Below, piece after piece: positions 5,175 to 16,473 of a stretch of DNA of 64,000 bases. The notes under the pieces are model-generated. The model saw only the letters and a list, made by a program, of their open reading frames with translations, was not told where the DNA came from and ran no database searches. Position 1 is the first letter of the stretch. The number at the start of each line of letters is the position of its first letter. The stretch is from Lacipirellula parvula (lineage in GTDB: Bacteria; Planctomycetota; Planctomycetia; Pirellulales; Lacipirellulaceae). The stretch is from contig NZ_AP021861.1 in the NCBI RefSeq assembly GCF_009177095.1, positions 6,368,501 through 6,432,500 on the forward strand. Reading direction: 5' to 3'. The translations under genes were made by a program, and so were the position numbers.

Positions 5175-7367
5175 ATGCGGAAGACCCTCTCCCTTTCGCT
5201 TGCCATTCTGATCGGTGCGTGGCATGCGTCGACGCATGGCGCGGAGTCCTCCTCCTCGACCGCTGACGAGCAAGCACGCCGAGACTACGCCGAATATGCG
5301 CTGACTCATCAGGGCAACGTCGCGCGCGGCAAGCTCGTCTTCGAGCGATCAGCCGGTCCCAACTGCGCGAAGTGCCACACCGTCGACGGTAACCGTCGCT
5401 TCGCCGGTCCCGACCTGAGTAGTATCGGCGATAAGTTTGAACTCCCTGAACTGATCGACTCGATCCTCAATCCCTCGGCAACGATCGCGATCGGCTACGG
5501 CAACACGATCGTTCAAACGGATGCGGGCACAACGCACGCCGGGGTCATGCAACGAGTCACGGCCGATTGGCTCGAACTGCTCGACGAAAACAGCCGCCCC
5601 GTCCGCATCCCCGCGGCCGAGGTCGTCGCGACCCAGGAGAGCGACGTTTCGCTGATGCCCGCCGGGCTTGAGAAGTCGATGACTCGCGATGAGTTCGTCG
5701 ACCTCCTCGCCTACCTGCAATCGCTTCGGCAAGAACTCGGCGCTTCAGCCTCGCCGTCAACGCCCAACGAAATACCTCCATGCGCGGAGCCAGTGCAATT
5801 CGTGCCGCTATTCGACGCGAGCCTTCGCTTCGATCATCCTGTTTGGATCGGCCGCATCCCCGGCGACGGTCGTCGCTACGTCGTGCTCGAACATGCCGGC
5901 ATGAGTTGGATCGTCGAGAAGACGCCGGCCGGCGATCGACGCACGCCGCTGCTTGATCTCAGCGGCGTCGTTCGCCGCGGCGGAGCGACGGGCCTGCTCG
6001 GCTTCGCCTTTCATCCTAAGTTTACCGAGAATCATCGGTACTTCTTAAAGTACCATGTCGTCGAGGCAGGACAGATTTCCACGATCGTTGAAGAGCGATC
6101 GTTCGCCCCCGATTTTAAGGGCGATTCAGGCCAGCCTCCCCGCCAGTTGCTGAAGATTCCTAGCGTGACGCAAGATCACAATGGCGGCAGCATCGTCTTT
6201 GGCCCTGACGGTTACTTATACATCGGCACGGGTGACACCGGCCCGCAGCGCGATCCACGCGGCCATGGCCAAGACCTGGGCTCACTTCTCGGCAAGATGC
6301 TGCGCATCGACGTCGATCAAACTGAAGCCGACAAGGCGTACGCCATCCCTCCGGACAATCCATTCGTCGGCGTCGACGGCATCCGGCCGGAAATTTGGGC
6401 CTACGGCTTTCGCGAACCATGGCGTTACAGCTTCGATCGCCAAACGAACGATCTCTGGGTGGGCGACGTTGGCCAAGATCGTTTCGAAGAAGTGACGCTG
6501 GCCCGCGTCGGCGAGAACCATGGTTGGAACGTCTTCGAAGGAGCGACGCCCTTCTCCGAGGAATACCGTCGCGAGCACGAACGCTACGTCTCGCCCGTTC
6601 TCAGCTACCCGCGCCGCCTCGGCGTTTCAGTCACGGGCGGTTACGTCTACCGCGGCGCGCGGACTCCGGCGCTGATCGGCCAATACGTCTTCGGCGACTT
6701 CGAATCTCGACGACTCTGGGCGTTGCTTCCTGAAGGACGCAATACAAAGGAGATCGTCGAAATAGGTCGGTCGCCGACGCGGATCGTTTCGTTTGCCGAA
6801 GACGCCGATGGCGAACTGCTCATGGTCGGCTTCGACGACGGCGTCGTCTATCGGCTTGATTTCGAACAAATCGACCTGAGCCCGCTGGAAACACACACCA
6901 TTGCTGCAACCGCCGAGCAGAGCCCGGTCCTGTGGCGATACACGCTTGAATCGCCCTCAGAAAACTGGACCGCCGATTCGTTCGACGACTCGAGTTGGTC
7001 GCTGGCGCCAGGCGGCTTCGGCACGACGGGCACGCCGGGAGCAATCGTGCGAACAGACTGGCACGCTCGCGACATTTGGCTGCGTCGTTCTTTCGACCTC
7101 CCAACCGCGCCGTCTGCGACCGCGACGTTTGACGACAGGGAATTCGCCCTGCGGATCCATCATGACGAAGACGTCGAGATCTACCTTAACGGCGTCGAGA
7201 TCGCTCGCCTGCCGCGTTGGACGAGCGGATATGCCGAAATCCCTCTCAGCGCGACCGCAGCGTCGGCGCTGAAGCCGGGGAAAAACGTTCTTTCGATTCA
7301 CTGCCGGCAGAATAGCGGCGGCCAGTATATCGACGCGGGCATCGTCGAATACGTCCGACCGCGCTGA
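5175..7367 (+). CDS. Cytochrome c domain fused to a PQQ-type sugar dehydrogenase propeller
   Basis: 730 residues from ATG 5175; a TTG lies directly before it. Residues 1-23 are a signal peptide. A planctomycete-type heme domain follows with CAKCH (C64, C67, H68) and the downstream ILNPSATIAIGY block. From about 205 to 560 comes a six-bladed propeller like soluble glucose dehydrogenase, with HNGGSIVFGPDGYLYIGTG and RIDVDQTEAD regions. The last 130 residues are a beta-sandwich resembling carbohydrate- or ligand-binding domains (IYLNGVEIARLP). It probably oxidises a sugar or alcohol in the periplasm and passes electrons to its own heme. PQQ dependence and substrate are inferred from the family. 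Confidence 0.82.
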   Translation: MRKTLSLSLAILIGAWHASTHGAESSSSTADEQARRDYAEYALTHQGNVARGKLVFERSAGPNCAKCHTVDGNRRFAGPDLSSIGDKFELPELIDSILNPSATIAIGYGNTIVQTDAGTTHAGVMQRVTADWLELLDENSRPVRIPAAEVVATQESDVSLMPAGLEKSMTRDEFVDLLAYLQSLRQELGASASPSTPNEIPPCAEPVQFVPLFDASLRFDHPVWIGRIPGDGRRYVVLEHAGMSWIVEKTPAGDRRTPLLDLSGVVRRGGATGLLGFAFHPKFTENHRYFLKYHVVEAGQISTIVEERSFAPDFKGDSGQPPRQLLKIPSVTQDHNGGSIVFGPDGYLYIGTGDTGPQRDPRGHGQDLGSLLGKMLRIDVDQTEADKAYAIPPDNPFVGVDGIRPEIWAYGFREPWRYSFDRQTNDLWVGDVGQDRFEEVTLARVGENHGWNVFEGATPFSEEYRREHERYVSPVLSYPRRLGVSVTGGYVYRGARTPALIGQYVFGDFESRRLWALLPEGRNTKEIVEIGRSPTRIVSFAEDADGELLMVGFDDGVVYRLDFEQIDLSPLETHTIAATAEQSPVLWRYTLESPSENWTADSFDDSSWSLAPGGFGTTGTPGAIVRTDWHARDIWLRRSFDLPTAPSATATFDDREFALRIHHDEDVEIYLNGVEIARLPRWTSGYAEIPLSATAASALKPGKNVLSIHCRQNSGGQYIDAGIVEYVRPR

Positions 7368-7492
7368 TCGCGCGCCGGTTGAATCCCGGGTAGCAAGCCT
7401 CTCTTTGAACCAGGCGTGAACCTCGCAGGCGCGGCGTGCGTCCCTCCTCGCATCGCCGCCGCGTTCACCTCCTAGACAGCTCGCTTGCCCCC

Positions 7493-8107
7493 ATGCCCGA
7501 AGCCTCGACGCTGCTGAGCTATCTCTTCGTGATGTCGATCACGCCGGGCCCAAACAACCTGATGCTCACCGCGTCGGGCGTCAACTTCGGCGTCCGCCGT
7601 TCGGTTCCGCACATGCTCGGCATCTGCTTCGGCAACGCCATTCAGGTATTGCTGGCCGCGGCGCTCCTCGCCACAATCTCCGCCTGGATTGGCGAGTTGC
7701 GTTGGGTCATGGCGATGGTCGGCTGCAGTTATCTGCTTTGGCTCGCCTACAAGATCGGCCAAGCCGGCGCTCCCGAGCGTCGCGACTTGGCCCAACCGCT
7801 CAATTTCTGGAGCGCTGCGCTCTTTCAGGCCGTGAACCCCAAGGCGTGGGTGATGGTGATCAACACGGCGATCTTGTTCATGCCGCGCGACGGCCGCTTG
7901 GCCGCTGCCGTGGGCATCGCCGCCGTCAGCGCTACGGTCGCTCTACCGTGCATTGCCGTGTGGGCTTGGGGCGGCGAGCGACTTCGCCAATTGCTGCAAC
8001 GCCCCGCGGCGCTACATGCGTTCAACCTCACGATGGCCGCGCTACTCGCCGCCACCGCCATCTGGTTGCTCGTCGACGAGTATCACATCCGCTTCAGCGC
8101 GAGCTAA
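7493..8107 (+). CDS. LysE/RhtB-family exporter
   Basis: 204 residues from ATG 7493; an in-frame GTG at 7436 would add 19 non-hydrophobic residues and is less likely. The N-terminus has the family signature SITPGPNNLMLTASG, and the middle has FWSAALFQAVNPKAWVM, both conserved in LysE/RhtB transporters. About six hydrophobic helices can be drawn. Members export amino acids or related metabolites from the cytoplasm; the substrate here is unknown. It stands alone, converging on the PEP-CTERM gene at 8270 across a shared hairpin. Confidence 0.88.
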   Translation: MPEASTLLSYLFVMSITPGPNNLMLTASGVNFGVRRSVPHMLGICFGNAIQVLLAAALLATISAWIGELRWVMAMVGCSYLLWLAYKIGQAGAPERRDLAQPLNFWSAALFQAVNPKAWVMVINTAILFMPRDGRLAAAVGIAAVSATVALPCIAVWAWGGERLRQLLQRPAALHAFNLTMAALLAATAIWLLVDEYHIRFSAS

Positions 8108-8138
8108 AACCTTAGTCCGCTCCCACAACCAACGAAAA

Positions 8139-8180
8139 CTGCCCGCCCCCCGTCCGGCGAACCGGAAAGAGGACGGGCAG
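8139..8180. terminator. Hairpin between convergent genes
   Basis: Outer arms CTGCCCG and CGGGCAG enclose an inner CCGG-CGAA-CCGG hairpin. The position between the convergent LysE gene and the PEP-CTERM gene suits a bidirectional terminator. Confidence 0.5.
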
Positions 8181-8269
8181 AACAGGAGATTCACTCAGCG
8201 AGCTCGCCTTGGCAGGAAGCGGCCAACTCGCAGTCTCTAATTTCTAAACGTAACTCGCTGTCATTTGGT

Positions 8270-9031
8270 TCATGCACGGCGACGGCGAGCAGCGAGCAGC
8301 CCGATCACGGCGACGCCGGCCATCGCCGCGGTCGCCGGTTCCGGCACCGTCTGCACGAAGATGTTCGTCGCGGCGATGTCGGCCCCACGCACAGGAATGA
8401 TCCCGAAGAAAGTCAGCTCCGACACCGTGAGACGAATCTCGTACTCGCCGACCACTTCGGGATCGTAGCCAGTCGGCCCGATCGGCAGCGCCAAAAACCA
8501 CGATGCAAAGCCAAGGTTCGCCGAATCGCTCACCACCCACGGCGTCACGTCGTTCGACCAAGCGCCCGAACCAGGGTTCGCGTAGAAGTTCGGGGCCAAA
8601 CCCGAGACTGGCCCCGCGACGGTCTTGAAGCTCGCCGAGCCGGGGGTCGGATCGAAGTCCACCTCCAACGTGAGCCAGTAGTCGGTCAGCGAGAAGAAGT
8701 TCGGATCAGCGGCGCCATCTTCCGGCGTGAACTGATAATCGAACGACCAGGCGGGGTTCACGTTGTCGGCAGCCAGCCCCGTCGGCACGTAGTAGACGTT
8801 GCCGCTTTGCGAGAGGGGTTGTCCGGTGTCGCGAAGGCGACCTTTGAGGGCGACCGTGTCGCCGGTGTTGGCCGTCACCGAGGTGAAGTTGTCGGCCGGA
8901 ATGCCCGAGCCTGCGATAAACGTGCCGTTGGCTTTGCTGGGCGAGACGAGCGCGGCAGCGGCGGGAACGGCCAGAAAGGAAATCGCCGCGAAGGCGAGCA
9001 AGGTGGAGCGAAAGCAAACGGAGCGAGTCAT
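8270..9031 (-). CDS. PEP-CTERM surface protein (array member 1)
   Basis: 253 residues. Signal peptide about 1-26 (ending PAAAA); mature part with NGTFIAGSGIPADNF and WLTLEVDFDP, a beta-rich domain I cannot assign; C-terminal sorting signal VPEPATAAMAGVAVIGLLAA followed by RRRRA. It is the last of five co-oriented PEP-CTERM genes. Its leader (9032-9140) has only a partial match (GGTGCGA on the plus strand near 9064) to the element seen upstream of its neighbours. Function is probably structural or adhesive at the cell surface; this is inference from the tail only. Confidence 0.78.
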   Translation of the reverse strand: MTRSVCFRSTLLAFAAISFLAVPAAAALVSPSKANGTFIAGSGIPADNFTSVTANTGDTVALKGRLRDTGQPLSQSGNVYYVPTGLAADNVNPAWSFDYQFTPEDGAADPNFFSLTDYWLTLEVDFDPTPGSASFKTVAGPVSGLAPNFYANPGSGAWSNDVTPWVVSDSANLGFASWFLALPIGPTGYDPEVVGEYEIRLTVSELTFFGIIPVRGADIAATNIFVQTVPEPATAAMAGVAVIGLLAARRRRA

Positions 9032-9149
9032 GAGCGTTCTTCGGGGAGGGCCGTCGATTAGGACGGTGCGAGGCGGGAGTGATTGGGGAGCTTGTTAAGA
9101 GAATCGCGATCGTTACGGCTACGGTACGATCGCGGCAGTCGGCGCCACC

Positions 9150-9182
9150 GCCTTCCGCTCAGCCATCAGCCAAGCGGAAGGC
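9150..9182 (-). terminator. Terminator-like hairpin after array member 2
   Basis: Perfect 10-base arms (GCCTTCCGCT at 9150-9159, AGCGGAAGGC at 9173-9182) with a 13-base loop, about 25 bases past the stop of the 9208-10080 gene. Confidence 0.6.
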
Positions 9183-9207
9183 AGCGAGCCAGGAGATAGC
9201 CCGTCGA

Positions 9208-10080
9208 CTACGCGTTGCCGCGTTGACGACGTCGCACCACGAATAAGCTGAGGGCAGCGGCGCCGGCCAAGCCAAGGCTTGCCGGTTCGGGGACCACCGA
9301 CGACTGAATGTTGTCGATGGCAACCGAGTTCGCATAACCAGCTTCACCGTTCAGGTGGAAGAAGTACTCGCCGGTGGTAGCGCTCGGTTCGTTGGCGAGC
9401 AAGAAGGTGTGGTTCGAGATCTTTTCAATGCCGTCGACGAAGGCCTTCACTTTGCCCGTCGTGTAATCGGCTTCGATCGCCACGTTGTACGTCGTCCCTT
9501 CGACGTAGTTGAAGAAGTCGACGAGCGTGGTGTTGTCGGCCGAGCGGAAGGCGAACACGCCGCCCGTTTCGCTGGTCGGCGCGGCGGCAAAGCGGAACGA
9601 TTGTTGCGAACCGCTGTTCGTGAAGGCGTTCATGCCGAGAATGATGCCAGCCGACCCGCCGCCAGCCAACAGCTTCGGCTGCGTGAGCGCCACCGTCGGG
9701 GCCGCGAGGATGTTGACGTCGAACGACATCCGAACCTTTTGACCGACGGCGCCGAAGCCGTTGTTGTCGATCCACAGCGCGCCAAGCTCAGCGTTCGCGG
9801 GATTGGTGGTCATGATCGCCCCTTGGGCCATGCCCGGAGCGCTGCCGACCACGATCGTGCCGCTAGCAGCCGTTGGCGGGCTGTCGGAGGTCGTCGCGGT
9901 GTAGCCGCCGATCGCCGAGGGCTTCGTCATCGGATTGCCTGGCGCGCTCACGCTCGGGGCCGATCCGGCCGCGTCGCCTTCGAAGTCGATGTTCATGAAT
10001 GGCGCGGCCGAGGCCAGCGCGGGGGCCATGCCGATGGCGACGAGCAGAGCGGCGAGGCGTGAGAAGCGAGTAATGGTCAT
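9208..10080 (-). CDS. PEP-CTERM surface protein (array member 2)
   Basis: 290 residues. Signal peptide about 1-25 (ALASA). The mature domain begins FMNIDFEGDAAGS and contains VRMSFDVNI, IILGMNAF and YFFHLNGEAGYANSVAIDNI, a lectin-like or laminin-G-like beta-sandwich pattern seen in many PEP-CTERM proteins; this fold call is tentative. The tail is VVPEPASLGLAGAAALSLFVV then RRRQRGNA. A copy of the shared leader element lies at 10099-10120, 19 bases upstream of the ATG. The codons for FVVR at 9232-9243 contain the same 12-mer in inverted orientation to the leader copy. Confidence 0.8.
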   Translation of the reverse strand: MTITRFSRLAALLVAIGMAPALASAAPFMNIDFEGDAAGSAPSVSAPGNPMTKPSAIGGYTATTSDSPPTAASGTIVVGSAPGMAQGAIMTTNPANAELGALWIDNNGFGAVGQKVRMSFDVNILAAPTVALTQPKLLAGGGSAGIILGMNAFTNSGSQQSFRFAAAPTSETGGVFAFRSADNTTLVDFFNYVEGTTYNVAIEADYTTGKVKAFVDGIEKISNHTFLLANEPSATTGEYFFHLNGEAGYANSVAIDNIQSSVVPEPASLGLAGAAALSLFVVRRRQRGNA

Positions 10081-10098
10081 GAGCGTGTTCCTGATTGA

Positions 10099-10120
10099 AC
10101 CCGTAGTTCGTGGTGCGAAA
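10099..10120 (-). promoter_or_regulatory. Shared leader element, copy 1
   Basis: On the plus strand it reads ACCCGTAG then the core TTCGTGGTGCGAA (10107-10119). It lies 19-39 bases upstream of the start of the 9208-10080 gene. The match to copy 2 at 11364 covers about 20 bases with one difference. The role (operator, RNA leader or other) is unknown. Confidence 0.55.
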
Positions 10121-10201
10121 CGGGCTGGTTGTGGCTTAGATAAAAACTGAGAGTGTGATTTCGAGTGAGAGGGTCGAGGTGCGTCGCAGCCGGCGTCTCC
10201 G

Positions 10202-10320
10202 CCTCTCGCTCAGGGATCAGCTGAGCGAGAGGCAGCGAGCCAGGAGAAGGCCCGTCGGCTGACCACACACAAAGTCGCCGACGTCGCACCACGAAAATCT
10301 GCTGAGTCCCTGCGGCCAAG
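10202..10320 (-). pseudogene. Remnant of a PEP-CTERM gene tail with its terminator
   Basis: This stretch resembles 9150-9290, which holds the end of the neighbouring PEP-CTERM gene and its terminator: shared words include GGCAGCGAGCCAGGAGA, GCCCGTCG and GACGTCGCACCACGAA in the same order. Read on the minus strand it encodes IFVVRRRR, matching LFVVRRRQ of the intact gene, but no VPEP motif or long reading frame is left. A perfect hairpin closes it: CCTCTCGCTCAG at 10202-10213 and CTGAGCGAGAGG at 10221-10232. It is best read as a decayed duplicate that lost most of its coding region. Confidence 0.55.
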
Positions 10321-10480
10321 CCCGACGGGCGTTGGCGTCGCGGGGAGTGAAGGGTGTTCGTTGCCGCGTGTGTTGTAGAGAGAGCCGTGTAACGGCCAGT
10401 GAGCAGAGTGCCTGGATCGAACTACTCGTTGAAACTAACTGATTCGACTTAAATTCCGAGAGAGGCGTTACTCGCTGCTT

Positions 10481-10512
10481 CGTCTCCCGCCTGGCGAACC
10501 AGACGGGAGACG
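10481..10512 (-). terminator. Terminator-like hairpin after array member 3
   Basis: Fourteen-base arms with a single mismatch (CGTCTCCCG-C-CTGG and CCAG-A-CGGGAGACG) around a CGAA loop, 23 bases past the stop of the 10535-11338 gene. Confidence 0.65.
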
Positions 10513-10534
10513 ACTTGCAGCTCGTTTCAATCAA

Positions 10535-11338
10535 CTAGGCGTTGCGACGACGGCGAGCAGCCGAGAGCAAGCCCAGGCCAGCCAGCCCAGCGAGAGCGAC
10601 CGTGGTCGGTTCCGGCACGGCTTGGGCGACGGCGTCGCCGACGACGTAGCCTTGCATCCCGCTGACATAGTTCGTCAGCGTGTCGCCGAAGACCCAGTTC
10701 ACGCCGTAGGCGATGTTCGTGACGTCTTGACGCGGGGCGCCGGTGCCGATGCCGTTACCGCCGGCGATGTACGACGGGCTCGGGGCGCCGATCGTCAGGT
10801 TTGCCAGGTCGCCGAAGGTCAGCGGGCCGTTGATGCCGACCAAGTTGTGGACCCACGTGTTCGTCGAATTGAAACCGCCGTTCGAGGTTTCGTAGACTTG
10901 GACGCGCTTGTCGGCCAGGTCGGCGAAGTCGAGGCTGTATGACTTGGTGCCGTTGCCGTTGTCGATGAACAGCGGTTGGAAGTCGGGGTTCGACGGTTCG
11001 TTGGCGAGCACGGCGAAGTTCGTGCCGTCGGTCACCCAGATGTTGAGGTACGGGCCGACGGCCGGGCCCGAGCCGGCGGTGAAGCGAGTGGTGTCGTCGA
11101 ACCGCGTGATGCCCAGGTTGGTGATCTGGCCGATCTTGGCGCCGCTGATGTCGTTGCTACCGTAAGCAGCCTTCTGACCGGCCGATTGGATGACGAATTC
11201 CGTGTTGGCGCCAATCGGGTTGATCGTCGGGTTGTTGCGAATCTGGAAGCCCGTGAAGGCGGCTTGAGCGGAGGCGCCACAGACTGCGAGAGCGGCGGCG
11301 ACGGTCAGACAAGCGAAACGAATCTTAGAAACGGACAC
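10535..11338 (-). CDS. PEP-CTERM surface protein (array member 3)
   Basis: 267 residues with a GTG start at 11336-11338, supported by AAGGAG seven bases upstream. Signal peptide about 1-26 (GASAQA). The mature part contains FTGFQIRNNPTINPIG, a PYLNIWVTDGTNFAVLANEP stretch, and YSLDFADLADKRVQVYE; I do not recognise the domain. Tail: VPEPTTVALAGLAGLGLLSA then ARRRRNA. Leader element copy 2 lies at 11364-11384. Probably exported and exosortase-processed; role unknown. Confidence 0.8.
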   Translation of the reverse strand: MSVSKIRFACLTVAAALAVCGASAQAAFTGFQIRNNPTINPIGANTEFVIQSAGQKAAYGSNDISGAKIGQITNLGITRFDDTTRFTAGSGPAVGPYLNIWVTDGTNFAVLANEPSNPDFQPLFIDNGNGTKSYSLDFADLADKRVQVYETSNGGFNSTNTWVHNLVGINGPLTFGDLANLTIGAPSPSYIAGGNGIGTGAPRQDVTNIAYGVNWVFGDTLTNYVSGMQGYVVGDAVAQAVPEPTTVALAGLAGLGLLSAARRRRNA

Positions 11339-11363
11339 TAGCTTTCTCCTTGGAAGATGAACG

Positions 11364-11384
11364 ACCCGCAGTTCGTGGTGCGAA
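11364..11384 (-). promoter_or_regulatory. Shared leader element, copy 2
   Basis: Plus strand reads ACCCGCAG then TTCGTGGTGCGAA (core 11372-11384), 26-46 bases upstream of the GTG start of the 10535-11338 gene. It is nearly identical to copy 1. Confidence 0.55.
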
Positions 11385-11449
11385 GCGAGTCGCGATTATT
11401 TTTTGAGTAGATGAACGAGTGAATGATCAGCGAACGGTGTTCGACTAGC

Positions 11450-11478
11450 CTCCCCGTCCGCAGGCCGCGGACGGGGAG
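11450..11478 (-). terminator. Terminator-like hairpin after array member 4
   Basis: Perfect 12-base arms: CTCCCCGTCCGC (11450-11461) and GCGGACGGGGAG (11467-11478), five-base loop, 22 bases past the stop of the 11500-12354 gene. Confidence 0.65.
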
Positions 11479-11499
11479 AGCCGGTCGACAGGAGACTCG

Positions 11500-12354
11500 T
11501 TAGGCCTTGCGAGCCCGGCGACGCAGAGCGAGGCCAGCCACGCCGGCGAGGGCGGCCATGCCGATGCTGGCCGGTTCCGGCACAGCTTGGAAGTTCCAGG
11601 TCTGGCCGCCGCCGAGGGCGGTGTAGGAGATGCCGTCGAAGTAGCTCACTTCACCCGGGTTGTAGGTTCCTTCGCCGATGCCGAGAGCGACGACGCGAGC
11701 CGTGGCGAAATCGGTCGGATCGCTCGTTTGGAAGGCAGCGACCCATTCGGTGAGCGAGCGAAGCGGAGGACCGCCGGCGCCGCTGCCGATTTCGAAGCCG
11801 CCCGACCACCACCAACCGCCGTTGGCATCGTTGCCGCCGCCATCAGTCGGCGAGATCGAGACTGCTTGCCACGCATCGGCCGTCGGGGTCGGACCGTTCC
11901 AGTAGGGCTCGTAGATCAGCGTGCCGTAGTTGTCGCCGGTGCCCGAGGTCGAGTTGACGATCAGCTTCAGAGCGGGAGCAGCCGAAGCGTTCAGCGGATT
12001 GGCGGTCTTGTAGTAATTGTAAGCCAACTGAACGTTGCCGAGGAACGAGGCCGCATCGCCGAAGTCAGCGTAGGTGTAAGCTTCGGCACGAGCGCTGTTG
12101 TCGTTCGGGGTGGTGATCTTGCCGGCGCCGGTCGGCAGCGGCTGAGCCGATTCCAGGTTGCCGCCCGCACCGGTCAGATCGACGATGCCGATCGTGGCGC
12201 CGCCCTGCACGCCGCTCTCATACCACGAACCAACGGCCGGGGTCGGCGTCGCCGGAAGAATCTGAGTGACGACCGCGGCCAAGCCGACGTTCGCCGAGAA
12301 GGCACAAGCAGTGCCGAGAAGAATTGCCTTGAAACCAAATCGCGTGATGGACAT
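11500..12354 (-). CDS. PEP-CTERM surface protein (array member 4)
   Basis: 284 residues, ATG at 12352-12354 with GGAG eight bases upstream. Signal peptide about 1-26 (NVGLAA). The mature domain includes WYESGVQGGATIGIVDLTG, LIYEPYWNGPTPTADAWQ and GGWWWSGGFEIGSGAGG; such aspects recall extracellular beta-sandwich PEP-CTERM proteins but no family is assigned. Tail: VPEPASIGMAALAGVAGLAL then RRRARKA. It lacks the TTCGTGGTGCGA leader element; instead a (TG)9 tract lies at 12385-12402, about 30 bases before the start codon. Confidence 0.8.
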   Translation of the reverse strand: MSITRFGFKAILLGTACAFSANVGLAAVVTQILPATPTPAVGSWYESGVQGGATIGIVDLTGAGGNLESAQPLPTGAGKITTPNDNSARAEAYTYADFGDAASFLGNVQLAYNYYKTANPLNASAAPALKLIVNSTSGTGDNYGTLIYEPYWNGPTPTADAWQAVSISPTDGGGNDANGGWWWSGGFEIGSGAGGPPLRSLTEWVAAFQTSDPTDFATARVVALGIGEGTYNPGEVSYFDGISYTALGGGQTWNFQAVPEPASIGMAALAGVAGLALRRRARKA

Positions 12355-12384
12355 TAACGTTTCTCCGCCTAAAAAATGACTGAA

Positions 12385-12402
12385 TGTGTGTGTGTGTGTG
12401 TG
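12385..12402. repeat. (TG)9 dinucleotide tract upstream of a surface-protein gene
   Basis: Nine uninterrupted TG units (CA on the coding strand) 31 bases upstream of the ATG of the 11500-12354 gene. Tracts of this kind can change length by slippage and alter spacing between promoter or leader parts; no such variation is shown here. Confidence 0.9.
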
Positions 12403-12441
12403 AAAACTCGAATCTCAAAACTTGATCTGAATCGGTCGGCC

Positions 12442-12463
12442 GCCGCTCACCTCAATGAGCGGC
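12442..12463 (-). terminator. Terminator-like hairpin after array member 5
   Basis: Arms GCCGCTCA (12442-12449) and TGAGCGGC (12456-12463) with a six-base loop, about 20 bases past the stop of the 12483-13193 gene. Confidence 0.55.
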
Positions 12464-12482
12464 AGCCAACCCGTGACTTCAA

Positions 12483-13193
12483 CTAGCTCGCCCGACGCTT
12501 GCGAGTGGCGGCGAGGGCTCCCATGACGCCAACCGCGGCGAGGCCGATCGTTGCCGGCTCCGGCACCACGGCCACTTGGCCCAAGCGGTCGCTGCCGTAG
12601 CTCGCTCCGCCGGCGACGCTGTAGCCAAACGATTGGCTCAACCGCAGTTGCACGGCGGTCGTCGGAACGGCCGGGGCCGGCGACAGGCCAAGCGAGTTCG
12701 ACGTGAAGACTTCCCAAGGAGCGGCGAATTCAAGCACGCCGGGAGTCGAAGGGCCGCCGGGGGTGACCGAGTAGTGAATGTCGGCCGAGCCGGGCGTGTA
12801 AGCGATGCTGCCGGGAATGCCCGGAACGAAAGCATTCTGGTTCACGACTTCAAAGCCGATGTTCGAACCGGTCAGCGTGGTGCTGAAGTAGAGGTTGGCA
12901 AAGTCGAGGCCGCCGGTGTAGGTGTTGCCGGTCGTCGTGATGCCGACGTAAAAGTAGTCGTTGTCGCCGCGGGTGTAGATATCGTACGCGGTGGTGGCGT
13001 TCTCGTTGGTCGGCGTACCGAAGTTGCCGAGCAGAGCCGACGGATTGTACAGAACGCTCTTCACAGTTGCCCCGGCCCATTCGGCGCCGAGGGTGCCGTC
13101 GACGCTCACCGGAGCGGCATTGGCGCTCCCGACAAGCATCGTGGCCGCGACGCCGCAGGCGCCCAGAGCGGCCCAGAACTTGGAAACAGACAT
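12483..13193 (-). CDS. PEP-CTERM surface protein (array member 5)
   Basis: 236 residues, ATG at 13191-13193 with AGGAG seven bases upstream. Signal peptide about 1-26 (GSANA). The mature part starts PVSVDGTLGAEWAGATVK, a pattern common in surface proteins with a carbohydrate-binding-like DOMON/CBM9 fold (the DGxLxxEW start followed by DNDYFYVGI). That fold would suggest sugar or heme binding; it is an inference. Tail: VPEPATIGLAAVGVMGALAA then TRKRRAS. Two leader element copies lie at 13231-13243 and 13266-13277. Confidence 0.8.
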   Translation of the reverse strand: MSVSKFWAALGACGVAATMLVGSANAAPVSVDGTLGAEWAGATVKSVLYNPSALLGNFGTPTNENATTAYDIYTRGDNDYFYVGITTTGNTYTGGLDFANLYFSTTLTGSNIGFEVVNQNAFVPGIPGSIAYTPGSADIHYSVTPGGPSTPGVLEFAAPWEVFTSNSLGLSPAPAVPTTAVQLRLSQSFGYSVAGGASYGSDRLGQVAVVPEPATIGLAAVGVMGALAATRKRRAS

Positions 13194-13230
13194 TAGCGAT
13201 CTCCTGTTGATTGCCCACGTCGACGTTGCG

Positions 13231-13277
13231 TCTCGTGGTGCGACTCTAACTCTTTGGTCCCGCGATTCGTGGTGCGA
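13231..13277 (-). promoter_or_regulatory. Shared leader element, copies 3 and 4
   Basis: Two plus-strand copies: TCTCGTGGTGCGA at 13231-13243 and CCCGCGATTCGTGGTGCGA ending at 13277. They lie 38 and 73 bases upstream of the start of the 12483-13193 gene. Copy 4 keeps the CCCG prefix seen in copies 1 and 2. Confidence 0.5.
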
Positions 13278-13396
13278 TGAGCAGGACCGACCCGTAACAC
13301 ATGCGATGCACGACTAAGCTTTGATCTGGTGCATTGCGCCGCGAACTCTGCGTACAGAACTCGCGGTGGAACGCTCCCTTCACAGGAACCGTGGCC

Positions 13397-13434
13397 CCTG
13401 CTGCGGCGCCTTGAGGAGTCGGCGCCGCAGCAGG
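13397..13434 (-). terminator. Strong GC-rich hairpin without an adjacent gene
   Basis: Perfect 14-base arms (CCTGCTGCGGCGCC and GGCGCCGCAGCAGG) around a 10-base loop. No intact gene ends just before it on either strand; the nearest minus-strand stop is about 390 bases upstream. Confidence 0.55.
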
Positions 13435-13783
13435 CACGGCAAGGGTCGAATGATCCGGATCGATGATCCTCCTTGCATGAGTGACTTGCTTAGATCAACC
13501 GATCGACCAGGCGTGGCAGAGTATTCGTGTCGTGGTGCGAAGCTCGAGGCAGGCGCCATTTCTCCAGCTAAAAGAAACGACGGATGCTGGTCGGGACTTC
13601 TCTCTGAACCTGAGGGTCGATCAACAAACGACTTCAAACTTCGGATCAGGCATTCTTGCGAGCGCGATTGGGTCGGAACGCCGGCAAGAACTTCGCGGAA
13701 GCAAACGGTGTGTAGGCGTCGCCTCCGCAGGCAACGAACGCATTTTTTATAGACGGGCCTCCTTTCGATGGGTGGTGCGGGCA

Positions 13784-13813
13784 GGCGTCTCGCTTTGATC
13801 GGGTTAAGACGCC
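13784..13813 (-). terminator. Hairpin after the receiver-like gene
   Basis: Arms GGCGTCT (13784-13790) and AGACGCC (13807-13813), ten bases beyond the stop of the 13823-14248 gene. The stem is short, so support is modest. Confidence 0.4.
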
Positions 13814-13822
13814 CGCGACGGA

Positions 13823-14248
13823 CTACGCTTCAACTGGCCGCCAGTCGCCTTGGAGAACGACGGACGACGCCAACGGGGAAATAACTGCTTCCGGCCCACG
13901 ACGACGCAGCGACGACGCGAACTCGGCTAACCATGTTTCATCAGGCACGCTGTCGAGCACCAACGCGGCGCCGAGCGAGCGAGCCAAAATTTCTTCTTCT
14001 TGCGAGAGCGAGTCCGAAGCGACCAGCCACCGCTGCTGCGGCCAAGCCGTCAGCACGCGATGCATAATCTCCCACACGTCGATTTCGGCACGATCCAAAC
14101 CCACGACCACCAGGTCGAAGCCAATCAGCCGCATCGTCGACATCGCCTCGCGAATGGTCGACGCCGCGTAGACGTCAATCACCGCCGATGGACTCGACAG
14201 GCCGTCGATCCCGATGGTTAGGAGCGTGGGTTGAACCTTGGCTACCAT
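13823..14248 (-). CDS. Receiver-like protein, possibly a degenerate response-regulator domain
   Basis: 141 residues from ATG 14248. The frame stays open upstream to a TTG at 14404, but that extension is basic and lacks a ribosome site, so the ATG is preferred. The order of strands and helices looks like a receiver domain: LLTIGIDG, IDVYAASTIREAMSTMRLIGFDLVVVGL, then WLVASDS and ARSLGAALVLDSV. The acidic pair expected after strand 1 and the phospho-acceptor Asp after strand 3 are not clearly present (VVGLD is shifted), so phosphorylation is doubtful. It lies downstream of the sigma-54 activator on the same strand, separated by 630 bases. Function is unproven. Confidence 0.5.
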   Translation of the reverse strand: MVAKVQPTLLTIGIDGLSSPSAVIDVYAASTIREAMSTMRLIGFDLVVVGLDRAEIDVWEIMHRVLTAWPQQRWLVASDSLSQEEEILARSLGAALVLDSVPDETWLAEFASSLRRRGPEAVISPLASSVVLQGDWRPVEA

Positions 14249-14878
14249 GCGAACTAACTCTGATCGCGAACTAACTCGGAGAGGATTACTGGAGGCGAGT
14301 CGCCTCATTTCAATGCGTTCCCTTAAAGCGAACTGCGTGCCAATGGCGCGCAACGCCGCCGAGTCACGAAGAAATGCCGAGAAAACAAGGCTCCGTGAGG
14401 ACAAACGCCCAATTCCGCGACCGATCGCAAGAATCTGACCGACTGGTCGTTTTAACCTGCTGTTTGCGCGAGATGCGGCGGCAGAGCGAAGGCCGCAAAG
14501 ACGTTACGACGCGACCGGTTGTTTTGAACAGGGCAGGTTAAAATAACCATCCGGCGACATACGCCGACGAAGATGATGCAGAAACGCAACGAGTCGACCG
14601 CGGGCGCGGATAGTACGGAGAGGTGCGGACAGAATGACGCAGAGCGTCGAGAGGAGCGTTCCCACGCAGAGCGTGGAATTGAGGAGGAGTCGCCAAGAAT
14701 GACGCGCAGCACGGAGCTGGGCGCCGAGCAGTTCGAGAATCTCGAACTGTGAGGTCCCCTCCCCTTGAGGGGGAGGGTTAGGGAGGGGTGATTGCAGCGG
14801 GTACCAGGGTTCCACCCCCTCCCCAGCCCTCCCCTCAAGGGGGAGGGAGCCGGAACACTTATTTCCGTGCCGACTTGC
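14249..14878. other. 630-base gene-free stretch with a 95-bp palindromic repeat
   Basis: Holds copy A of the 95-bp palindromic family (14755-14850), an inverted pair near 14452-14545 (AACCTGC against GCAGGTT), and two tandem GCGAACTAACTC words at 14250-14279 just before the receiver-like gene. Nothing here looks coding. Confidence 0.6.
14755..14850. repeat. 95-bp palindromic repeat family, copy A
   Basis: Arms TCCCCTCCCCTTGAGGGGG and its approximate complement, each with a small inner palindrome (CCCCTTGAGGGG), around a centre reading GGGTACCAGGGTTCCA. Other copies lie at 32652, 38411 and 48778 (reversed). Confidence 0.8.
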
Positions 14879-15877
14879 TTAACCGCGCGTCGAAATATTC
14901 AACCGCTCAATCCGCCGGTTAAGCCGCTGAATGTTAATCCCCAACATCCGGCTCGCCTTCGCTTTGCAGAAGTCTGTCCGCCGGAGCGCCTCGGCAATTG
15001 TCCGCCGCTCCAGTTCCGTGAGGCACAACTCGGGCGTTTCCGCCGACGCCGGCTGCGGCGACTGCAGCCGCACGGGCAGATCGCTCAGTTCAATGCACTC
15101 GCCCTGAGCAAGCACATGGGCCGATTCCATCGCGTTGGCCAATTCGCGGACGTTGCCTGGCCAGTGATGCCGCTGCAGCGCCCCCGCGGCAGCCGCAGAG
15201 AGCTGACGCATCGGCTCGTCATACAGCTCCGCTTGCTTCTGCAGGAAGTGATTCGCCAGCGGTACGATATCTTCCGCCCGTTCCCGCAACGGCGGCAACG
15301 TCGTCACGACGACGTTCAGTCGGAAGTACAAGTCTTGCCGAAACGTCCCTTCGCGCACCATCGCGGCAAGATCGCGATGCGTCGCCGCAACAATCCGCAC
15401 GTCGACTTGGTGCGGTCGCGTATCGCCTACCGGCGTGACGCAGCGTTCCTGGATCACCCGCAACAGCTTCGCTTGCAACGGCAGCGAGAGCTCGCCAACT
15501 TCATCCAGAAACAGCGTGCCGCCATCCGCGGCGCGGACGAAACCGAGCGATTCCCGTACGGCGCCCGTAAACGCCCCTTGGACGTGGCCGAACATCTGGC
15601 TTTCGAACAGCGTGTCCGAAAGGGCCGAGCAATCGACCGGAATCAGCGGCGCAGCGCACCGGTCCGATTGGGCATGAATGTACCGGGCGACCATTTCTTT
15701 GCCGGCGCCCGTTTCGCCGAGAATCATGACCGTGCACTGACGCGAGGCGACGGTCGAGGCGACAGATTTGATGGCATTCATGGCGGCCGACCGACCCACG
15801 AGCGCCACAGGGCGCGCGAAGGATCGTCGAGCCGCGGGTGCGCGCAACGTGGCGCTACCCGAGGAGGTCCCGTTCAT
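14879..15877 (-). CDS. Sigma-54-dependent transcriptional activator without a receiver domain
   Basis: 332 residues from ATG 15877; an in-frame TTG at 15907 would add ten. The AAA+ core is complete: Walker A GETGAGK (54-60), the sigma-54 contact loop GAFTGA (101-106), Walker B GTLFLDEVGE (about 117-126), and RFRLN-like FRQDLYFRLN. The last 40 residues form a Fis-type helix-turn-helix (RRTIAEALRRTDFCKAKASRMLG). Only about 30 residues precede the core, so there is no receiver, GAF or PAS input domain, as in PspF. It would activate sigma-54 RNA polymerase by ATP hydrolysis from an upstream site. Neighbourhood suggests, but does not prove, control of the PEP-CTERM array. Confidence 0.88.
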   Translation of the reverse strand: MNGTSSGSATLRAPAARRSFARPVALVGRSAAMNAIKSVASTVASRQCTVMILGETGAGKEMVARYIHAQSDRCAAPLIPVDCSALSDTLFESQMFGHVQGAFTGAVRESLGFVRAADGGTLFLDEVGELSLPLQAKLLRVIQERCVTPVGDTRPHQVDVRIVAATHRDLAAMVREGTFRQDLYFRLNVVVTTLPPLRERAEDIVPLANHFLQKQAELYDEPMRQLSAAAAGALQRHHWPGNVRELANAMESAHVLAQGECIELSDLPVRLQSPQPASAETPELCLTELERRTIAEALRRTDFCKAKASRMLGINIQRLNRRIERLNISTRG

Positions 15878-16473
15878 TAGGCGTGGTGTCTCTTCAAAGG
15901 TGGGCAAGGCTCGGGCGTTGTTCCGAACGCACGAACCGGCAGAACGCTTGGCAGGATCTGCTCACCAGACGAGAAGTCGGCAGCCTCTGGGGGCCCAACA
16001 AGTGGCCGCTCCAGACGCCGGACGATAAGAGCTGCTCGCGATGCATCGCGGCTCAGCCCAGAGAACGTAAGTTGCTCTCCTGAAGCAACTTGCACCCTCG
16101 GAGCCACCGGCAAAACGCATCGCCGGGCGATCTCTTTCGCCCTGACTAAGCTCTTTCCCTGTCGACCCGATTCACAATTCTGGTGAAATTCCGCATGTGT
16201 AAAACCACATGCGGTTAAACGTCAGAATAGTCAAATCTTCACGTTGATCAAGTTTCCGACACGCCGATTCCGTCCAAAAAAATCCAGCAAGCCTCCCCAA
16301 ATTGGCTACTGATAGAGACTTCCGGCAACACAGCCCCGTCAAACTTTCCAAAGATTTCCTTCCCCAGCGAGCCGCGGGGTTCACCCCCGCGGTCCCCCGC
16401 CCCCAATATTCCCCAAACCAAATCCCAAATTCACCTTTATCCCGACCTCAGCGAAGCTGACAAACCCGCAATC
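15878..16473. other. 596-base gene-free stretch
   Basis: No gene is visible. It is more AT-rich at 16190-16440 than its surroundings and contains a palindromic element at 16366-16395 whose sequence closely matches the element found inside fmt at 30291. A promoter for the sigma-54 activator may lie here but none is recognised. Confidence 0.5.
16366..16395. repeat. Short palindromic element (AGCGAGCCGCGGGG family), intergenic copy
   Basis: AGCGAGCCGCGGGG, TTCA, CCCCCGCGGTC; stem CCGCGGGG against CCCCGCGG. It matches the in-gene copy at 30291-30323 in about 26 of 30 positions. It is placed just past the end of the 16474-18720 gene, on its downstream side. Confidence 0.6.

Follow-up and report, generated by a model that had tools for sequence, protein, structure and literature searches.

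Control of PEP-CTERM surface-protein genes has been described in Proteobacteria, where the PEP-CTERM/exosortase system operates with PrsK-PrsR-sigma-54 control (Haft et al. 2006, PMC1569441). In the part of that report available to us, the elements upstream of the genes are DNA motifs, which occur only in Proteobacteria within the set considered there and precede 99 of 167 genes, with motif 1 ending in TTTACA. The accessible part of PMC9850573 likewise describes pepA as RpoN-dependent. At the RNA level, the accessible part of PMC4423207 describes selective RNA processing and stabilization for the cip-cel cluster of Clostridium cellulolyticum, where processed sites were mapped and stem-loops lie at the 3′ ends of genes with high transcription. 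Here we consider a tandem array of five PEP-CTERM genes from Lacipirellula parvula, contained in a window of 64,000 nucleotides (positions 6,368,501-6,432,500 of the 6.92-Mb single-contig genome), and the short leader element that its genes share.

We assign a probability of roughly 0.55 to the leader being a genus-restricted, cis-acting RNA hairpin, which lies upstream of the Shine-Dalgarno sequence and tunes single cassettes in a sigma-54-type operon setting. Because the hairpin is common to three of the five unrelated genes, the array genes are, as far as sequence comparison can tell, probably under joint control after transcription. If this is true, an RNA element common to unrelated surface-protein genes would provide a handle on the relative amounts of surface proteins, and would show that a regulatory RNA part can persist unchanged as the proteins downstream of it are replaced. 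PEP-CTERM proteins are numerous in this genome—at least 149, with the best 150 of 433 candidates scored—and the control elements set out above for such genes are DNA sites of Proteobacteria. No description of the leader hairpin was found in the literature covered, subscription journals lying outside that coverage.

The core of the leader reads TTCGTGGTGCGA on the plus strand and TCGCACCACGAA in the mRNA. It occurs five times in leader orientation, at 10107, 11372, 13232, 13266 and 13529, as the initial annotation of this stretch had recorded, with one mismatch to the 12-mer in each of the copies at 13232 and 13529. Two further exact copies absent from that record, at 9232 and 10284, run in the opposite orientation, the former within the coding tail of gene 9208-10080 and the latter within a tail-like relic. 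Read in the mRNA as UCG-CACCA-CGA, the core forms the apex of a predicted hairpin, the stem of which comprises about 4 to 8 pairs and varies in sequence from copy to copy while its complementarity is kept. The paired flanks are AGCCCGU/ACGGGUU for the copy at 10107, CGACUCGC/GCGGGUCG for that at 11372, and GGUCCUGC/GCGGGACC for that at 13266. A CCCG prefix, previously noted in three copies, is indeed present (at 10099, 11364 and 13258), and in the transcript corresponds to the 3′ arm of the hairpin. Across the 6.92-Mb genome there are 12 exact copies of the 11-mer TCGCACCACGA, seven of them in the array, against five copies of a reversed control pattern; at the outside-array rate, 0.004 copies would be expected in 5272 bp. 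All five copies outside the array fall within open reading frames (ORFs) of at least 258 amino acids (aa). We also considered a trans-acting RNA with full complementarity to the core, for which these five copies and complements, all in such ORFs, yield no candidate.

Syntenic arrays exist in two genomes of the same genus, Lacipirellula limnantheis I41 (G003; NZ_CP036339.1, array locus L067) and the metagenome-assembled genome (MAG) Pirellula sp. PB1.3.31 (G004; locus L068), in each case following the same activator and the same small gene. Across the three genomes, the hairpin precedes eight of 13 array genes; L. limnantheis contributes two leaders with altered cores, as well as an orphan, and PB1.3.31 contributes three exact-core leaders. 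Stability was compared with that of shuffled flanks in two ways: in 500 rounds with the core fixed, its pairs enforced and the 14-nt flanks shuffled, and in 1000 rounds with the pairs unconstrained, the count in each case being that of shuffles as stable. Five of the six exact-core gene leaders gave 0-4 of 500 and the sixth 47 of 500 (2, 2 and 47 for the three from PB1.3.31), and the altered-core leaders of L. limnantheis gave 33/1000 and 36/1000 in the unconstrained shuffle. By comparison, six tail-orientation copies, two orphans, copy b of the core at 13232 and five genome-wide control copies all lay at chance (238 to 488 of 500). Swapping of 3′ flanks, which took six of the eight hairpin leaders and left out the two altered-core copies, showed that, of 720 arrangements, 3 match the stability of the true pairing, which is itself one of the three; without the orthologous PB1.3.31 copy, 2 of 120 were as stable. 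A covariance model (CM) recovers all eight copies of the three species at E values from 1.5e-4 to 6.8e-13, having been built from the same eight. The leaders of L. parvula gene 9208-10080 and PB1.3.31 gene 6831-7628 provide an example: they follow similar stretches of tail and hairpin, and their stems are different yet paired (alignment A6). In five of the eight copies, moreover, the core ends 27, 31, 32, 32 or 34 nt before the start codon.

A stem that remains complementary through sequence change, the mark of a structured cis-acting RNA, is thus what we found, weakly so in a column-shuffle count discussed below. The leader holds up as a real shared element, and of the two forms of control that the initial annotation had envisaged, action at the RNA level is favoured for the array, since the flanks vary yet still pair on either side of an unchanging apical sequence, and since three species retain the element. 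The data do not support a common regulator acting on PEP-CTERM genes at large. Within 100 nt upstream, GCACCACG occurs before three of the 134 PEP-CTERM genes that could be read among the 149 (80 of 83 planned stretches, frames above 1000 aa excluded, starts chosen by a custom score), and all three are in the array; a core ahead of further PEP-CTERM genes was sought among these 134, and none was found. The shorter word CGCACCA precedes two PEP-CTERM genes outside the array among those read. PEP-CTERM genes of the genome are partly clustered elsewhere, for instance at G000:C1:1271855-1277560; between other same-strand PEP-CTERM neighbours within 6 kb, just one shared upstream word exceeds 10 nt, a 12-nt word at 3838875/3840819.

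Profile searches of relatives gave a similar picture. In six genomes of the genus, model matches outside the arrays begin at E 0.0014 and number 62 at E up to 5; 11 of the 62 were inspected, of which all 11 lie inside ORFs and none is a PEP-CTERM leader. Matches at E 0.02 or better were found in 14 of 43 family genomes, and at E 0.002 or better in 16 of 246 order genomes, the three array genomes being included in both counts and the best outside match reaching 5.0e-5. Inspection of 18 of the 27 distinct family and order matches outside the arrays revealed no leader of a PEP-CTERM gene; at one locus (L189) a PEP-CTERM gene ends 430 nt before the match, and at another (L199) there is only a chance match of the search expression. 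These searches scored the best 147-150 candidates per genome (25 in one search) and used stricter filters above 40 genomes, such that weak copies may be missed. CGCACCACG is absent on both strands from three Verrucomicrobiota MAG loci (L184, L185, L186); these loci carry 48-50% relatives of the 11500-12354 product. The leader profile adds no further PEP-CTERM leader among the matches inspected, and the hairpin is known so far from three closely related species only.

The array itself comprises five co-oriented PEP-CTERM ORFs on the minus strand, as had been proposed, and all five products pass the PF07589 gathering score and, in the genome search, exceed the TIGR02595 cut-off with their tails. 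Their N termini look hydrophobic in the translations. The variable domains also seem unrelated, as had been noted: the protein middles lack evident similarity, with 21-24% identity to the first sequence, tails counted in, in an alignment of the five window proteins with one each from L. limnantheis and PB1.3.31 (A5). An exosortase match (PF09721, E 9.9e-56) lies at C1:390624-391388 of the same genome. Genes 11500-12354 and 10535-11338 have orthologues in both relatives (62-74%), and 12483-13193 in L. limnantheis only. Both relatives also hold a gene of 215 aa (L067:10329-10976 and L068:6045-6692), which in the window seems left as a tail relic; this relic, at 10186-10320, probably arose by loss of the gene that the two relatives keep. 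A separate observation concerns a TG/CA dinucleotide run at 12385-12402, 5′ of gene 11500-12354, where slippage could change its length; at the matching position, the leader is degenerate in L. limnantheis and intact in PB1.3.31.

On the minus strand, the order is activator, -24/-12 site, small receiver-like gene, orphan core, the five genes and a terminator with a U tract. Because this order runs from activator, site and small gene to a terminator conserved between species, a single operon driven by a sigma-54-type promoter may span the whole array. The putative promoter sits between the activator and the small gene, within a strongly conserved block in all three species, and a scan of the 64-kb window detected no exact -24/-12 pattern before single cassettes. 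All six genus genomes have a sigma-54 domain match. At E 1e-8, the small gene has a match in three of 43 family genomes, namely those with the array, two other genus genomes in that search being incomplete (68 and 82%). Neither Pfam nor NCBIfam gives a match for its product at E 0.001, and a structure model with a mean pLDDT of 47 gives matches mostly to receiver domains, the best at E 2.3e-3 and hence none reaching 0.001, which is only a hint that the product is receiver-like. Behind each array gene lies a strong GC-rich hairpin, with 60-nt windows folding at -36.5 to -41.8 kcal/mol; the windows of those located between genes span -37.8 to -41.8 kcal/mol. Each cassette accordingly has its own hairpin, as initially annotated, and it is the role of terminator that is doubtful: a U tract follows the end-of-array hairpin only and the internal ones are without, though hairpins that lack it are common behind PEP-CTERM genes of the genome.

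Features of the PEP-CTERM array and its surroundings, in window coordinates. Shuffle counts are shuffles as stable out of 500 (core pairs enforced) or 1000 (pairs unconstrained).
Feature	Position	Strand	Evidence or remark
End-of-array terminator, hairpin then T-rich stretch	8135-8180 (about)	minus	Closely similar one closes the G003 and G004 arrays
PEP-CTERM gene 5, exact leader core absent	8270-9031	minus	PF07589
Inter-genic GC-rich hairpin	9140-9191	minus	60-nt window folding
PEP-CTERM gene 4	9208-10080	minus	PF07589
Tail codons TTC GTG GTG CGA, exact reverse complement of leader core	9232-9243	minus	Inside gene 9208-10080
Leader hairpin of gene 9208-10080	10098-10126	minus	0/500, 5/1000; CM 36.5 bits; core end 27 nt before start codon
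Putative relic: PEP-CTERM tail (IFVVRRRRLCV) and GC hairpin	10186-10320 (about)	minus	Repeats D2 81%, D17 91%
Inter-genic GC-rich hairpin	10470-10525	minus	60-nt window folding
PEP-CTERM gene 3, GTG start	10535-11338	minus	PF07589
Leader hairpin of gene 10535-11338	11361-11393	minus	4/500, 11/1000; CM 43.8 bits; core end 34 nt before start codon
Inter-genic GC-rich hairpin, arms co-vary between species	11438-11490	minus	60-nt folding and species comparison
PEP-CTERM gene 2, leader core absent in L. parvula	11500-12354	minus	PF07589; orthologues 73-74% in G003, G004
Inter-genic GC-rich hairpin	12434-12471	minus	60-nt window folding
PEP-CTERM gene 1	12483-13193	minus	PF07589
Leader core copy b, stable stem absent	13232-13243	minus	325/500, 823/1000
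Leader hairpin copy a of gene 12483-13193	13256-13288	minus	4/500; CM 27.6 bits; core end 73 nt before start codon
GC-rich hairpin, front part of array, U tract absent	13388-13440	minus	60-nt window -41.8 kcal/mol
Orphan leader core, no gene directly after	13529-13541	minus	Kept at L067:6962 (alignment A10); stem not significant
Small receiver-like protein gene	13823-14248	minus	Low-confidence model; start MVAKVQ inferred from alignments A8, A9
Putative sigma-54 -24/-12 promoter TGGCACGCAGTTCGC	14328-14342	minus	Sole exact pattern match in 64 kb; kept in L067, L068
Sigma-54-interacting AAA+ activator, Fis-type HTH	14879-15907	minus	Sigma54_activat E 1.7e-65, HTH_8; 88-89% orthologues beside G003, G004 arrays

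Drawn together, these features suggest how the array might be controlled. The neighbouring activator would switch on a sigma-54-type promoter, from which the array would be transcribed mainly as one RNA ending at the conserved terminator. Within that RNA, the leader hairpin would act near the site of ribosome binding, on translation or on stability; in concert with the strong hairpin that follows the previous gene, it would set the output of each surface protein. Two routes are conceivable: the hairpin may protect the 5′ end left after processing, or a factor recognising its apical loop may compete with the ribosome.

Several observations weigh against this reading. The 9697 leader of PB1.3.31 is not significant in either shuffle (47/500 and 99/1000). 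In the alignment underlying the model, paired positions are only mildly above column shuffles (76.1 versus 72.4%, 42/500), and pairs changed on both sides number 4 versus 3.0 in such shuffles (171/500); this alignment lacks the one- or two-base stem shifts that the actual copies require, and slid controls of the pair count give 27-45% paired. For three hairpin copies the distances to the start codon are 73, 83 and 105 nt, five of the 13 array genes have no hairpin, and the orphan core is conserved although its stem is not significant. Nor is the sigma-54 pattern enriched genome-wide, with 17 occurrences versus 29 in the reversed control. The 13-mer TTCGCACCACGAA is not a rare word in genomes of the order: across 39 relatives it occurs in 20 places and the reversed control in 5, and 17 of the 20 are outside arrays, 16 of these inside an ORF of at least 90 aa. 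No PEP-CTERM gene was seen at the loci of these outside places, except for two chance matches of the search expression. Finally, the internal hairpins may be terminators after all, each cassette then having its own promoter, because strong hairpins lacking a U tract are common behind other PEP-CTERM genes: elsewhere in the genome, a strong hairpin lies behind 92 of 127, and just 16 of the 92 have a U tract.

This last possibility leads to one of two transcriptional alternatives. In the other, the core would be a DNA operator, a near-palindrome TTCG-N5-CGAA before the cassettes, bound by the neighbouring activator (Fis-type, sigma-54) or by a different dimeric regulator. The near-palindromic form of the core speaks for such a site, as do the HTH_8 activator adjoining the array in all three species and the retention of the core in the orphan and copy b, where a stable stem is absent. 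We nonetheless consider it unlikely, since an operator would conserve its half-sites and have no need of complementary, changing flanks, whereas in these leaders an unchanging middle is framed by flanks that co-change; the leader copies also share their orientation relative to the gene, and sit after the sigma-54-type site and ahead of the ribosome sites, rather than upstream of the former. Slightly less probable again is that each cassette forms a separate transcription unit, with a promoter just before the leader and a terminator of its own, and that the hairpin is an ompA-type element, that is, a stabiliser at the mRNA 5′ end. An AT-rich patch lies directly before several hairpins (A6), one weak sigma-70-like match precedes gene 10535-11338, and the prevalence of hairpins lacking a U tract behind PEP-CTERM genes of this genome points the same way. 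On the other hand, no sigma-70-like match was seen in the scanned stretches of L. limnantheis and PB1.3.31, with one promoter type scanned, and a mere stabiliser needs no fixed sequence at its apex.

The opposite-orientation copies of the core raise a different prospect. They encode F-V-V-R of PEP-CTERM tails: besides the copy in gene 9208-10080, TTC GTG GTG CGA recurs at 10284-10295 and in two genes each of the L. limnantheis and PB1.3.31 arrays. The leader sequence UUCGCACCACGAA could therefore pair, through the apical loop, with the tail codons UUCGUGGUGCGA, either of the cassette that it precedes or of an adjacent one, inside a single mRNA or across cassettes, such that translation start would depend on an intact tail end. 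If so, the pairing would constitute an RNA-level check of the sorting signal that links the cassettes. In gene 9208-10080, the exact complementarity between leader and tail spans 12 nt, the longest own-gene value of 134 (the next is 10), and among the 17,822 other ordered pairs 9 reach at least 12 nt, with two of the nine inside the array. FVVR is found in one of 134 tails, that of the same gene, and VVRR in three; given this rarity, we did not accept outright that the tail motif is a simple coding coincidence. Over the 13 array genes, however, leader and tail motif are not associated (both in three, leader only in five, tail motif only in two, neither in three), and the recurrence of the tail codons counts as about one event because the tails are homologous. 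The complementarity is suggestive only, and a functional pairing strikes us as improbable. Least credible of all is that cassettes were recently duplicated and shuffled and the shared leader is a functionless trace of this. The tails and the GC hairpins do form an evident mosaic (repeats D2 and D17), and cassettes have been gained and lost between species, but duplication would leave the stems as alike as the core, and what is observed is a retained core on stems that differ from one another and nonetheless pair.

A cis-acting hairpin within a sigma-54-type setting remains our preferred reading, and the array can be compared with several described systems. With the PrsK-PrsR-sigma-54 system, as far as the available part of PMC1569441 portrays it, the locus shares the conjunction of PEP-CTERM genes, a putative sigma-54-type -24/-12 site and a Fis-type sigma-54 activator, with an exosortase in the genome. 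Unlike the DNA motifs of that system, the L. parvula element is a predicted hairpin near the ribosome site, in one array. The array activator, unlike PrsR, has no receiver domain match in Pfam, and reaches 294.6 bits against the PrsR equivalog TIGR02915, the cut-off of which is 502.6. Compared with the -24/-12 site of the PrsR regulon, the array has one conserved putative site ahead of all genes, and the pattern lacks genome-wide enrichment. In being a small structured element in the 5′ region, the leader resembles the cis-regulatory families of Rfam; unlike them, it has no match in the window at gathering score, the covariance models giving within 8100-14400 one weak match below that score (Cobalamin, E 0.87, plus strand). 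The nearest RNA analogue that we met is cip-cel, which, in the accessible part of PMC4423207, likewise has strong inter-genic stem-loops in a multi-gene surface-protein cluster; to these the array adds a predicted 5′ hairpin, the apical sequence of which is fixed.

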